This document shows positions 46,312 through 50,625 of a stretch of 64,000 nt of DNA, piece by piece. Below the pieces are notes generated by a model. It worked only from the letters and a program-made list of their open reading frames with translations. It was not told where the DNA came from and ran no database searches. A program made the translations under genes and the position numbers. Positions within the stretch are counted from its first letter, which is position 1. Every line of letters begins with the position of its first letter. The DNA is from Haloarcula rubripromontorii (GTDB lineage: Archaea; Halobacteriota; Halobacteria; Halobacteriales; Haloarculaceae): assembly GCF_001280425.1 (NCBI RefSeq), contig NZ_LIUF01000003.1, positions 124,001-188,000 on the forward strand. The letters run 5' to 3'.

Positions 46312-46764
46312 TTAGTAGCTCCGCCCGGCACGACCCGTGCCGGAGTCCGCGTCCTCGTGTCCCAGCGCTTTCTGGAGGAACTTCATCCAGCGCTTTCTGT
46401 CGGCGGCCTCCTGTGCCCGTGCCTCCTGCTCGATGTCGGCCGCGCCGAGCTGTTCGAGCGCGTTGAGCGCCCGGTCGATGCCGATGATAGCCGTGGCGAG
46501 TTCCTCCCCGCGCTCGTAGCTCACTTCGTTGTCCTCGATGCGTTGCTTTCGCTGGAGGCGCTCGCGGCGCAGGTTCTTCTTTGCCTGCTCGACGCGCTCA
46601 CGCTCGCCCCGCGGCACCGTCTCCCGCCGCTTGATTTCGAAGACGAACGACTGGAGTTCTATCTCCTCGCCCTGGACGGTTATCCGGTCGGGGATGTCCG
46701 CACCGACGGTCGCGCTGTCGCGTTCGATGCGCTCCAGCAACTGTTTGCGCTCGAACTCTTTCAC
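46312..46764 (-). CDS. DUF5788 coiled-coil protein
   Basis: 150 residues, mostly helical and rich in Arg, Glu and Lys: RETVPRGERERVEQAKKNLRRERLQRKQRIEDNEVSYERGEELATAIIGIDRALNALEQL. The first part has QGEEIELQSFVFEIKRR strands. From memory, DUF5788. It is the first gene of the polX operon (1-bp gap to PolX). Nucleic-acid contact seems likely from the charge pattern; function is unknown. Confidence 0.78.
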   Translation of the reverse strand: MKEFERKQLLERIERDSATVGADIPDRITVQGEEIELQSFVFEIKRRETVPRGERERVEQAKKNLRRERLQRKQRIEDNEVSYERGEELATAIIGIDRALNALEQLGAADIEQEARAQEAADRKRWMKFLQKALGHEDADSGTGRAGRSY

Positions 46765-46988: not shown

Positions 46989-49073
46989 ATGACTCTAACC
47001 TTCGAACCGCTTGACGACCGTCCTGGGCTCGCGGTCATTGATCAGATCGAACGTCAGCGCTACCGGATACATACGCCGGCACCCATCGCGCTCAGAGAGG
47101 CAGCGACCGACGTATTTCAGTATCCCGTCGGGGACGCTGTCCAGATACGGACTCAGGCCATCGAACTGCCAACAGTAGTTATGGTGTACGTCCGTGACGA
47201 CGACGGGGCGATAGCCGCTGAGGTCGCGCAGTTCGAGTCGGAGACGCTTCCGGCCGACGACTACGTGCTGGACCCGCTGACGCAGATAAAGACATATATG
47301 CGGGTCGAAGACACCGCGGTTGAGGTCACCGTCGACTCGGACCGGACCCGGATCGAGTTCGATTCCCCGACGAACGTACTCATCGGCGCTCGCTCCCAGC
47401 ACGACCGGCCCGCGGCCACGGTCACGACGACCGGGGACCCGACCGACGTGATGGCCGCCGTCGAGACCTTCGGGTCGGCGCTCAAGGCCTACGACCCTGA
47501 ACGCTCCTATCCAACGCTTCGCGGCCACCCCCCAGCGCTTGAGATCGGTGAGACGCTGGACATCCCGGCGGATATCGACAGTCCGGACACCGGTGTCACG
47601 CTCGAACTCCCGCCCGACCTCGCGTCGATCTTCGTCGCCGCGCCGCTTTCGTACTACCTCGGGGCCTCGCTCGTCCCCGCATCCGAACCGCGGCTCACGA
47701 CCGACACCGGATTCACGTACTCGCTCGACACCGCCCGGGGCTTCGAATCCGAGGTTGGACGCACGCTCAAACGTCTCTTCTTCCTCGATTGTGTCACACG
47801 CACAGAAGGATTCCACCAGATCGACTTACACGAGCGAGCAGCCATCGAGCCGTACGTCGACCTCGACTTCGAGTCGCTGTATCAGCAGCCGCTCGCGGAG
47901 CAAGTCGCCGCCTACCTGCAGGTCCCGTACGACGTTATCGAGGACCACATTCCGAAGTGGCGGCTGACGACGCATATCGACCCGGTGCCGGCGAACGCAG
48001 AACAGCTCCCGTACGTTGTCGACGACCTCGCTATCGTCCGGACACACCAGCAGCAAGGACTGGATCAGGCGAGCGTTCCGGCCGAGGTTGAGGCGGAATT
48101 TACTCGGGACGATGTTATCACCCGTGCTGCGAGTTCCGACACCGCCACCAACCCAGCCGGGACGGACTACGTCGAACCGCAGGCTGAGGATTCACTGGAA
48201 CAGGCCTGGATAGGCGACAGCATCCCCATCGGCGCGAGCAAGCTGACCAAAGCAGCGTTCGAACATCGACTCGACCGCGACACGAACGCCGAGGATATCA
48301 CGATTCGCGTCGTCCAGAACGACGACCGGATGGACGAGGAACGACAGCTCGTCGACGACGTGTACGGGACCCGCGACGACCTGCCGTTCGATGTCACGGT
48401 CCACGACGACCTGACGACGGCGGAACTCAGGACCGTGCTCACGACAGACGCGGAGTTCTTCCACTATATCGGCCACACCGAACACGACGGCTTCGTCTGT
48501 AGCGATGGCAAACTGGACGTGACGACGGTCGACTCGGTCGGCATCGACACGTTCCTGCTGAACGCCTGCAACTCCTACAATCAGGGATTAGCACTCGTCG
48601 AAAAGGGTGCAATCGCTGGCATCGTCACACTCAACGAAGTACTGAACGACGGCGCGGTTCGTATCGGCGAGACGGTCGCACGGTTGTTGAACTGCGGCTT
48701 CCCCCTTCGCGCGGCACTTACCATTGCACGCGGTGAGAGTGTTCTCGGTGGGCAGTATATCGTGGTTGGTGATGGTGGTGTTACTGTGACGCAGACAAAT
48801 GGGGGAATGCCAAACCTGCTTGCGATACAAGCAACTGAAACTGGCTATAACATAGAAATGAACGTATACTCTACGGATGACAAAGCGTTAGGAGCTATTA
48901 TATTTCCGCACATTACTCGCTCTGAGGATCATTACTTAGTACCGGGTGAAATTGACACATTCAATGTTTCTAGGCGAGAATTGGAAGACTTTCTACAAAT
49001 GCAGCAGATACCAGTTAGGAACGAAGGGGACCTCTATTGGAGCAGGTCAATAGATTTGGATTCTATAGATTAA
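46989..49073 (+). CDS. Large protein with C-terminal CHAT (caspase/separase-like) domain
   Basis: 694 residues. The C-terminal third shows the CHAT core: FFHYIGHTEHDGF around residues 491-503, candidate catalytic His496; then DTFLLNACNSYNQGLALVEKGA with candidate catalytic Cys527; and GAIAGIVTLNEVLNDGAVRIGETVA, the strand-helix after the Cys. The N-terminal 450 residues show an architecture of beta strands and helices that I cannot assign. No signal peptide. The last ~110 codons (from about 48,750) switch to AT-rich, non-haloarchaeal codon use, so the tail looks recently exchanged. It probably cuts a partner protein; a candidate is the small membrane peptide downstream. Confidence 0.7.
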   Translation: MTLTFEPLDDRPGLAVIDQIERQRYRIHTPAPIALREAATDVFQYPVGDAVQIRTQAIELPTVVMVYVRDDDGAIAAEVAQFESETLPADDYVLDPLTQIKTYMRVEDTAVEVTVDSDRTRIEFDSPTNVLIGARSQHDRPAATVTTTGDPTDVMAAVETFGSALKAYDPERSYPTLRGHPPALEIGETLDIPADIDSPDTGVTLELPPDLASIFVAAPLSYYLGASLVPASEPRLTTDTGFTYSLDTARGFESEVGRTLKRLFFLDCVTRTEGFHQIDLHERAAIEPYVDLDFESLYQQPLAEQVAAYLQVPYDVIEDHIPKWRLTTHIDPVPANAEQLPYVVDDLAIVRTHQQQGLDQASVPAEVEAEFTRDDVITRAASSDTATNPAGTDYVEPQAEDSLEQAWIGDSIPIGASKLTKAAFEHRLDRDTNAEDITIRVVQNDDRMDEERQLVDDVYGTRDDLPFDVTVHDDLTTAELRTVLTTDAEFFHYIGHTEHDGFVCSDGKLDVTTVDSVGIDTFLLNACNSYNQGLALVEKGAIAGIVTLNEVLNDGAVRIGETVARLLNCGFPLRAALTIARGESVLGGQYIVVGDGGVTVTQTNGGMPNLLAIQATETGYNIEMNVYSTDDKALGAIIFPHITRSEDHYLVPGEIDTFNVSRRELEDFLQMQQIPVRNEGDLYWSRSIDLDSID

Positions 49074-49141
49074 GTGCGCTAATCGGCCAGTACTCCATCC
49101 TAAGTAAAGGAATAGTTCAACCTACTCAATATTTTTACCGT

Positions 49142-49273
49142 CTATGGCCCAGGGTACGCGCTATTATTAGCTGCTGCGGTCCCTGCCTGCGACAGTAGCA
49201 ACAGGAGAGTGAACAGTGCGCCGGTCATTTTTGGGTGCTCTGCGAGGTATTCGCGCATGGTGGTATCTGACAT
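49142..49273 (-). CDS. 43-residue hydrophobic peptide (DUF7503-like)
   Basis: The ATG at 49273 gives MSDTTMREYLAEHPKMTGAL, then FTLLLLLSQAG and TAAANNSAYPGP. A short charged head (REYLAEHPK) is followed by one hydrophobic helix of about 15 residues. From memory it matches DUF7503, a short conserved haloarchaeal family. It is convergent with the CHAT gene (68-bp gap between the stops), so it has its own promoter in the AT-rich region to the right. An export or anchor signal, or a membrane-active peptide, is possible. Confidence 0.7.
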   Translation of the reverse strand: MSDTTMREYLAEHPKMTGALFTLLLLLSQAGTAAANNSAYPGP

Positions 49274-49680
49274 GATACAACTTCGATGACGGCGGGTAGA
49301 TAATTAAATTTATTTGAAAAGTACCTACATATTATATATTGTATTAAGTATAGAATTAAAAGTTAAATCCAGAAAATAACATGCACAAGGCTAGAAGCGC
49401 GTGTTTAGTGGGCAGAGGCACACGCACAGGTCGTGCGTACACGTAAGAGATAACCAGCGACACCCCCATCAGTAGCGTTTAGTAGACAGGTATGTAATTG
49501 ATAATCAGGGTCTAGTATTGATGTATGAATGGAAAACAGCTGATGATTATCTGAGATGTATATCTCCTGCTAGTTCGCTCCGGGGGTCGGACGCAGGGTG
49601 GTCGATGTGTACGGCAATCGCTATCAGTTTGATAGAATGGCTGCTTGCTGGCGGCTTTGTCGCCACCACCGGGAGGACGG
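49274..49680. other. AT-rich intergenic stretch, no gene seen
   Basis: About 400 bp with much lower GC than the surroundings, including a TTTAATTATC tract about 35 bp before the peptide start at 49273. Only short frames without features occur (for example 21 codons from 49381). It continues the low-GC zone that begins inside the CHAT gene. Confidence 0.4.
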
Positions 49681-50625
49681 ATGACTTCTGAGGAGCAGTG
49701 GCGGCTCGGAGATAAGACGGTAGAGCTGTCCAGTGCGGCCATCAGCGGCAGCCGGCGCGCGGCAACGCGACATGCACCACTTCTCCGGACCGAATCAGTG
49801 GACCGGCGTGACGAGACGCGGGCAGAGGTACCGGTTCCACTGGCGAAAGTCGAGCAGTCGCAGGAGTGTACGGTGCTGCACGTCGATGATGACCCGCAGG
49901 TCGGTGACCTGGTCGAGATGTATCTCGAACGCATCAACGACGACTTCAACGTCGTGACCAAGACCAGCGCCGTCGCCGCGCTTGAGGTCCTCCGGAGCGA
50001 GCAGGTCGACTGTATCGTCAGCGATTACGATATGCCAAACACCGATGGGCTGGAGTTTCTGGAACTCGTCCGCGAGCAGTATCAGGACATCCCGTTTATT
50101 CTGTTTACTGGCAAGGGCAGTGAAGAGATCGCCAGCGAGGCAATTGCATCGGGTGTCACGGACTATATGCAGAAGGGAGGGAGATCAGACACGTACGATG
50201 TCCTGGCCAACCGAATCGAGAATGCCGTTGAACAACACCGCACAGAACAGCGGTTCTGGAACGCCCTCTCGTGGTATCAACGGCTCGTTGAACAGGAGCT
50301 TGCGGGCGTCTGTATCATTCAGGACGGGACGTTTGTCTACGTGAACCAAAAGCTGGCTGACATTTTTGGCTATGACCAGAGTGAACTTATCGACGAGTCT
50401 CCGGCCCTCCTCACGGCGGAAGGCGACGGCGACAGACTTCCTGAGTCACTCCGAGCGGCAGAGTCAGACGAACTCGATACGTTCCACTCGGAGTTCGAAG
50501 GGCGACAGGCCGACGGTGAAACGCGCCCCATCGAAGTATCCGGCGGGTCGATTGAGTACGACGGCAATCCGGCGTGGATAGGCGTGCTGCGAGACGCAAA
50601 AAGTAATCCCGACACTGACGGGTAA
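49681..50625 (+). CDS. Response-regulator receiver protein with PAS domain
   Basis: 314 residues from the ATG at 49681 (MTSEEQWRLGDKTVELSSA). A long N-terminal tail precedes the receiver domain: VLHVDDDPQVGDLVEMYLE, phosphoacceptor Asp in DCIVSDYDMPNTDG, then FILFTGKGSEEIASEAIASGVTDYMQKGG. A PAS domain follows (AGVCIIQDGTFVYVNQKLADIFGY ... ESPALLTAEGDGD). There is no kinase domain or output DNA-binding domain. It is a phospho-relay or sensor component, typical of haloarchaea. It starts beside the AT-rich stretch. Confidence 0.88.
   Translation: MTSEEQWRLGDKTVELSSAAISGSRRAATRHAPLLRTESVDRRDETRAEVPVPLAKVEQSQECTVLHVDDDPQVGDLVEMYLERINDDFNVVTKTSAVAALEVLRSEQVDCIVSDYDMPNTDGLEFLELVREQYQDIPFILFTGKGSEEIASEAIASGVTDYMQKGGRSDTYDVLANRIENAVEQHRTEQRFWNALSWYQRLVEQELAGVCIIQDGTFVYVNQKLADIFGYDQSELIDESPALLTAEGDGDRLPESLRAAESDELDTFHSEFEGRQADGETRPIEVSGGSIEYDGNPAWIGVLRDAKSNPDTDG

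Follow-up and report, generated by a model that had tools for sequence, protein, structure and literature searches.

What a CHAT-like protease gene does beside a very short gene for a hydrophobic peptide that runs towards it was asked for a locus in a 64,000-nucleotide stretch of Haloarcula rubripromontorii DNA (contig NZ_LIUF01000003.1; hereafter the window). A preliminary description of the locus had reported a 694-residue protein starting at 46989 with a CHAT core (HYIGH, LNACNS) and a convergent gene starting at 49273 for a 43-residue peptide, and had read the two as a protease and its membrane peptide in the manner of bacterial gasdermin systems. The 694-residue protein matched Pfam CHAT (PF12770) weakly, at 12.7 bits, below the gathering cut-off of 24; 10 of 43 homologues matched the same family at E 0.01 or better (best 1.8e-8). 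An AlphaFold2 model was built on the 43 homologues (mean pLDDT 88) and aligned with gingipain RgpB (Z 20.3, residues 323-637, 241 residues aligned, rmsd 2.8), a SAVED-CHAT protease (Z 19.0, residues 432-602, 169 aligned, rmsd 2.2) and separase (Z 18.4, residues 324-602, 213 aligned, rmsd 3.6). On the strength of this model the protein is assigned to clan CD (CHAT/separase/gingipain-like), with a caspase-like alpha/beta fold and predicted proteolytic activity. H496 and C527 were kept in at least 90% of the 43 homologues, and both were placed after consecutive core strands in the predicted structure. The open reading frame, the two residues (invariant in 27 homologues) and the clan CD fold (Z about 20) bear out the CHAT core that had been read from the sequence.

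The N-terminal domain (residues 1-147) was submitted separately to structural search, which gave Z 8.4 at best and no firm relative. Sequence searches of the PDB returned no relative of the CHAT-like protein, and NCBIfam returned no match. No match to the PADLOC 2.0.0 defence models was found among the window proteins or the 43 homologues. The 694-residue sequence carried no export signal, and its Pfam scan gave the weak CHAT match with no secretion or trafficking domain and no Ig family. Homologues were present in 52 of 60 relatives, and the nearest named relatives of the window gene were from Haloarcula species. Positions of all features are collected in Table 1.

Table 1. Features of the CHAT-peptide locus with their positions in the window, and loci carrying each peptide-tail type.
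Feature	Position	Strand	Basis	Loci
CHAT-like clan CD cysteine protease gene (predicted), 694 aa	46989..49073	+	ORF; fold Z 18-20 to gingipain, separase, SAVED-CHAT	
N-terminal beta-sandwich domain, residues 1-147	46989..47429	+	separate model, pLDDT 90.6	
His496 codon CAC, candidate catalytic His, motif HYIGH, after strand 488-494	48474..48476	+	invariant in 27 homologues	
Cys527 codon TGC, candidate catalytic Cys, motif LNACNS, after strand 519-525	48567..48569	+	invariant in 27 homologues	
Hypervariable C-terminal domain, residues 596-694, allotype-defining	48774..49070	+	pN/pS in 13 Haloarcula genomes	
Co-exchanged block: CHAT C-terminal domain, intergenic region and peptide tail	48774..49168	.	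mosaic identities, AU tests, orphan cassettes	
Convergent intergenic region, 68 nt, within the exchanged block	49074..49141	.	mean 29% identity among 13 genomes; both flanks above 85%	
43-aa DUF7503 peptide MSDTTMREYLAEHPKMTGALFTLLLLLSQAGTAAANNSAYPGP	49142..49273	-	Pfam PF24335, E 1.5e-22	
C-terminal Gly-Pro codons, nearly invariant	49145..49150	-	GP end in 105/124 DUF7503-type partners	
Variable tail codons NNSAYP, residues 36-41	49151..49168	-	tail types match CHAT C-terminal types	
Hydrophobic segment, residues 17-31, then AAA; signal-peptide-like or membrane anchor	49181..49225	-	sequence; head and segment conserved	
Conserved upstream block of peptide gene, TATA-like TTTAATTA	49300..49350	-	alignment of 18 Haloarculaceae upstream regions	
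Tail type SAYPGP				L001, L002
Tail type STYIGP				L003, L006
Tail type NIYIGP				L004, L005, L007
Tail type SSY[IF]GP				L008, L012, L013
Tail type NTYFGP				L009
Tail type SSY[VA]GP				L010, L011

The convergent peptide gene was confirmed where it had been described, and its product matched Pfam DUF7503 (79.4 bits, cut-off 27) as its sole match above cut-off. The two genes lie tail to tail, with 68 nt from stop to stop. Judged by its residues, the hydrophobic part of the peptide could equally be an anchor or a signal peptide, since a Gly breaker and Ala-Ala-Ala come before the final NNSAYPGP. The peptide head (window 49220-49273) showed unusually few synonymous differences, with a pS of 0.15 where the CHAT core has about 0.33; this, together with the conserved block upstream, hints at nucleotide-level constraint or regulation.

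The pairing of the two genes, which the preliminary description had offered as its own inference, was examined from both sides. Each of the 48 DUF7503 peptides above cut-off in the 60 relatives was convergent to a CHAT homologue, and a search from the CHAT side found the peptide at 73 of 80 named haloarchaeal CHAT loci. Among 16 genomes picked mostly for many copies, 52 of 57 peptides were paired with CHAT and five were solitary, so that the peptide was found mostly with a CHAT neighbour in both samples and the pairing stands. The five solitary DUF7503 peptides (L219-L223), above cut-off and without a CHAT neighbour, also end in Gly-Pro. Small open reading frames ending in Gly-Pro occupied the convergent position at 111 of 171 CHAT loci and were seen 0, 2 and 0 times at three control positions; their number opposite CHAT far exceeds chance expectation. 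Stop-to-stop gaps lay between -34 and 126 nt apart from a single gap of 260 nt, and values of 0 or -4 were frequent.

Of 391 genomes sampled from the class Halobacteria, 334 carried DUF7503. CHAT homologues reached 16 copies in one genome and 13 in another, and were located on 25 haloarchaeal plasmids, some copies being on megaplasmids. Phage and viral collections yielded no CHAT relative and no viral contig with CHAT, and the peptide was not found in phages; there was thus no sign of a viral carrier. Outside Halobacteria, homologues in the phylum sample came from four genomes of one family (L230-L233), in which the CHAT core was kept, the C-terminus was different and no Gly-Pro partner was evident; one of the four (L231) did not show the His-Cys motif.

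Across lineages, comparison of the partner peptides indicates that their constant part is the C-terminus (about six variable residues, then Gly-Pro) and not the membrane segment. The Gly-Pro end was missing in about 15% of DUF7503 partners. Multi-copy genomes carried partners that were unrelated to DUF7503 in sequence and had nothing but the Gly-Pro tail in common with the others. Among 108 distinct partners ending in Gly-Pro, the six residues before it varied, with I, T, Y or V favoured at -4, and the Gly-Pro codons showed zero non-synonymous change in Haloarcula or Haloferax. Within Haloarcula, peptide pN was 0 in the head and 0.25 in the tail. The hydrophobic segment, by contrast with the C-terminus, is dispensable in several lineages: it was absent from partners in Halococcus (L122, L124), Haloplanus (L097, L119) and others (L049, L050, L198), which ended in TYSGP, VSGP, ISGP or TYGGP. 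From these partners it seems that the tail is able to work within the cell. The partner of Haloplanus ruber L119, on the reverse strand and overlapping the CHAT stop, consists of 14 near-identical tandem tail units TADGNSGGISGP.

Two other origins for the Gly-Pro end were considered. Gene overlap forcing the codons was rejected, since Gly-Pro was kept where the genes lay 50-126 nt apart. Ribosome arrest or 2A-type skipping at Gly-Pro is unlikely given the tandem internal Gly-Pro units and the variability of the residues before Gly-Pro.

Variation in the protease gene was measured in 13 close Haloarcula species, with one genome per species. Residues 1-595 (the core) gave pN of about 0.03 and pS of about 0.33, with a mean core identity of about 94%; residues 596-694 gave pN of 0.27-0.37 and pS of 0.69-0.78. 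The same C-terminal jump was seen in Haloferax CHAT. Because synonymous divergence was doubled in residues 596-694, relaxed constraint alone is insufficient to account for the jump; the segment predates the surrounding core, which fits exchanged alleles. A second CHAT paralogue of the same 13 species, for which no peptide was detected, was flat to its end (pN 0.02-0.05). This paralogue (L039, L199-L218; in the genome of the window, G000:C3:440824-442482) has about 33% identity. Relatives of its clade elsewhere do have Gly-Pro partners, so its peptide was probably lost in Haloarcula.

C-terminal domains of the 13 Haloarcula proteins fell into types with 68-92% identity within and 35-61% between, and these types coincided with the types of the peptide tail. 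In partial Mantel tests, tail distance was associated with domain distance given the core (r=0.52, p=0.001 in Haloarcula; r=0.21, p=0.0005 for 95 sequences), and the peptide head showed no association with the domain given the core (r=0.02, p=0.37). Tail and domain are physically linked, so these correlations show co-inheritance and not, by themselves, contact. P675, G635 and W684 of the C-terminal domain were fixed within the variable block.

The two variable ends were found in an exchanged block of about 400 bp that spans the 3'-3' junction. Loci L007 and L008 were 91-98% identical over residues 300-594, fell to 57, 43 and 57% over residues 595-694, to 30% in the intergenic region and to 59% in the tail, and returned to 98% in the hydrophobic segment and 100% in the head; L005 and L010 gave a similar mosaic. 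In AU tests on the core tree, four of five multi-member tail types were rejected as clades (p 0.0022, 2.5e-7, 1.5e-42 and 2.3e-44), and a clade of type A was not rejected (p 0.25). The aligned sequences show in this way that the block has been exchanged between species as a unit. In a Halorussus-like genome (G399), each of two full CHAT-peptide pairs has behind it a truncated copy of CHAT that comes with a peptide of its own. Truncated and full copies were 97% and 90% identical in the core and 37% and 38% identical in the C-terminal domain; the truncated orphan copies look as a donor cassette for exchange would look.

The account towards which we lean is a two-gene recognition module, in which the C-terminal domain of CHAT would recognise the tail of the cognate peptide in a polymorphic self or pherotype recognition. 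The fixed Gly-Pro, together with a tail co-exchanged with the hypervariable domain, points to recognition of the tail. The hypervariable C-terminal domain (about 100 residues) of a cytosolic clan CD protease would bind the variable tail and the Gly-Pro carboxyl end; the conserved head and hydrophobic segment would position or export the peptide, the tail of about six residues would serve as a specificity tag, and binding of the cognate tail would activate or inactivate the protease. The tail-to-tail arrangement of the genes makes the specificity segments neighbours, and they could be swapped jointly: one recombination in the conserved flanks would replace both and leave the pair matched, which would give a reason for the strict layout. 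Such polymorphism would suit discrimination of self from non-self or of pherotypes. To the computed pairing, fold and motif, near-invariant Gly-Pro, matched hypervariable segments, block exchange and orphan cassettes, we add by inference the contact of tail and domain, the control of proteolysis, the direction of the switch and the biological role. Against the recognition module, physical linkage alone would move both segments together. By the positive-inside rule, moreover, the hydrophobic segment of the best-studied partners would leave the tail on the outer side of the membrane, where a cytosolic protease could reach it only after re-import or with an inverse insertion of the peptide. Further points against the module are the roughly 15% of DUF7503 partners that lack the Gly-Pro end, the five solitary peptides and the type A clade that the AU test left standing.

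One concrete form of this recognition account, less likely but still in play, is a secreted signal of RRNPP type: the leader would be cut after Ala-x-Ala and a 7-9-mer (NNSAYPGP here) re-imported to bind CHAT. The layout of short hydrophobic core, Gly breaker, Ala-x-Ala and variable tail suits such a signal, as does a constant leader with a variable mature part, the arrangement of pherotypes. Some partners, however, have no leader at all. RRNPP receptors are known with a TPR/HTH architecture, whereas the core of the putative receptor here is a protease fold. As in the RRNPP pairs of Firmicutes, a short peptide gene adjoins the gene of a soluble protein, and the variable part is the C-terminal end of the precursor, here a putative one (PMC10075063); the haloarchaeal pair differs in that its soluble partner is a predicted protease fold with an N-terminal beta-sandwich, that it is archaeal, and that both C-termini are exchanged as a cassette. 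It is unlikely that the pair is instead a toxin-antitoxin or effector-inhibitor system, in which a harmful CHAT protease would be held by the tail as its dedicated inhibitor and polymorphism would arise from competition between copies. The orphan cassettes beside full copies resemble the standalone cassettes of polymorphic toxin systems (PMC3482391), some CHAT copies are on megaplasmids as noted above, and a partner built of 14 tandem tails would make sense as a titrating inhibitor; on the other hand, CHAT homologues without a detectable peptide are common, the Haloarcula paralogue among them, and a convergent layout is unusual for such pairs. Polymorphic toxin systems (PMC3482391) further share a constant N-terminal part, an exchanged C-terminal domain and a cognate small gene with the haloarchaeal locus, in which, unlike in those systems, the variable part holds no known toxin domain, no export signal is seen and the 43-residue partner lies on the opposite strand.

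The gasdermin-like reading of the preliminary description, according to which CHAT would cut the head or tail off a membrane peptide and the freed hydrophobic piece would damage the membrane and kill the cell, we consider improbable. It survives in its protease half: the strict pairing, the clan CD fold and the His-Cys motif all agree with it, the fold is related to that of the partner-cutting SAVED-CHAT and Craspase proteases, cleavage could take place at the conserved His/Asn-Pro-Arg/Lys that precedes the hydrophobic segment, and up to 16 CHAT copies per genome would fit a defence role. Against its membrane half speak the partners that lack a hydrophobic segment (L122, L124, L097, L119, L049, L050, L198), and selection has fixed the C-terminal Gly-Pro and diversified a co-exchanged tail, neither of which a pore former would need; nor were the PADLOC defence models matched. 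Very improbable, finally, is the absence of any functional coupling, with the 3'-3' junction acting as a recombination hot spot between conserved flanks and the gene ends varying neutrally. Linkage alone could yield the correlation of tail and domain, and the intergenic region is variable as well. However, the variable block contains constant positions (the Gly-Pro end, P675, G635 and W684), the paralogue that has no detected peptide is flat, and unrelated partners converge on Gly-Pro tails.

The proposed recognition module shares with bacterial gasdermin-protease pairs, Craspase (Csx29/TPR-CHAT with Csx30) and SAVED-CHAT the clan CD fold, the His/Cys motif and an adjacent small partner gene. 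It differs from them in a tiny peptide partner with a near-invariant Gly-Pro end, in its convergent layout and in a hypervariable C-terminal domain of the protease that is exchanged with the peptide tail. The 43-residue peptide is too short for the gasdermin pore-forming fold and matched DUF7503 only; its hydrophobic segment, a candidate for membrane activity, is present in the window and absent in some partners. VARTIG modules of Thermococcales (PMC8416519) are likewise archaeal proteins with a C-terminal domain made hypervariable by recombination, but are large Ig-domain proteins without protease or peptide tail, whereas the protein here is a 694-residue protease fold; according to the authors of that study, Ig-based searches revealed no close counterpart among other archaea (PMC8416519).

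The literature searched contained no paper on either DUF7503 or the CHAT proteins of haloarchaea, and the family libraries searched assign DUF7503 no function. The protease fold itself is known; the module, as far as the literature was searched, is new and has not been described. If the recognition module is real, it would be an archaeal recognition system, present in most haloarchaea, whose protease and peptide diversify jointly within a single exchangeable block. Mating in haloarchaea proceeds by cell fusion, which is more efficient within species and whose molecular mechanism has been described as unknown (PMC5496957), and the polymorphic protease-peptide locus is a testable candidate for recognition in this mating. 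We entertain, tentatively, a haloarchaeal self-recognition locus likened to the heterokaryon-incompatibility loci of fungi: the cell's own peptide tail would set the caspase-like protease, a mismatch of types at mating fusion or peptide exchange would release or withhold proteolysis, and swaps of cassettes of about 400 bp, with silent copies next door, would renew the types. A self-recognition role at cell fusion fits the polymorphism and the mating by fusion, and is speculation. Caspase-like activity in Haloferax volcanii has been assigned to no gene, and clear homologues at the gene level were described as lacking (PMC3615174); the CHAT family, which would likewise give caspase-type proteolysis in haloarchaea, offers candidate genes for this activity, and candidates only.

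Other genes were recorded around the pair. A DUF7504 gene lay directly upstream of CHAT on the same strand at about 24 of 76 loci (for example L088 and L137) in many genera, and was absent from this position in Haloarcula; Pfam numbers DUF7503 and DUF7504 consecutively. DUF7504 was considered as a third gene of the operon and was treated as accessory, being absent upstream of CHAT in Haloarcula and a large multi-copy family. Often, at about 19 of 76 loci, the neighbour of the peptide gene in the same orientation encoded a response regulator with a HalX domain (downstream in L100 and L137). In the window, a DUF5788 gene (46312-46764, -) precedes the CHAT gene and is read in the other direction, and a gene for a protein with a response regulator receiver and a PAS domain (49645-50625, +) lies beyond the peptide gene.
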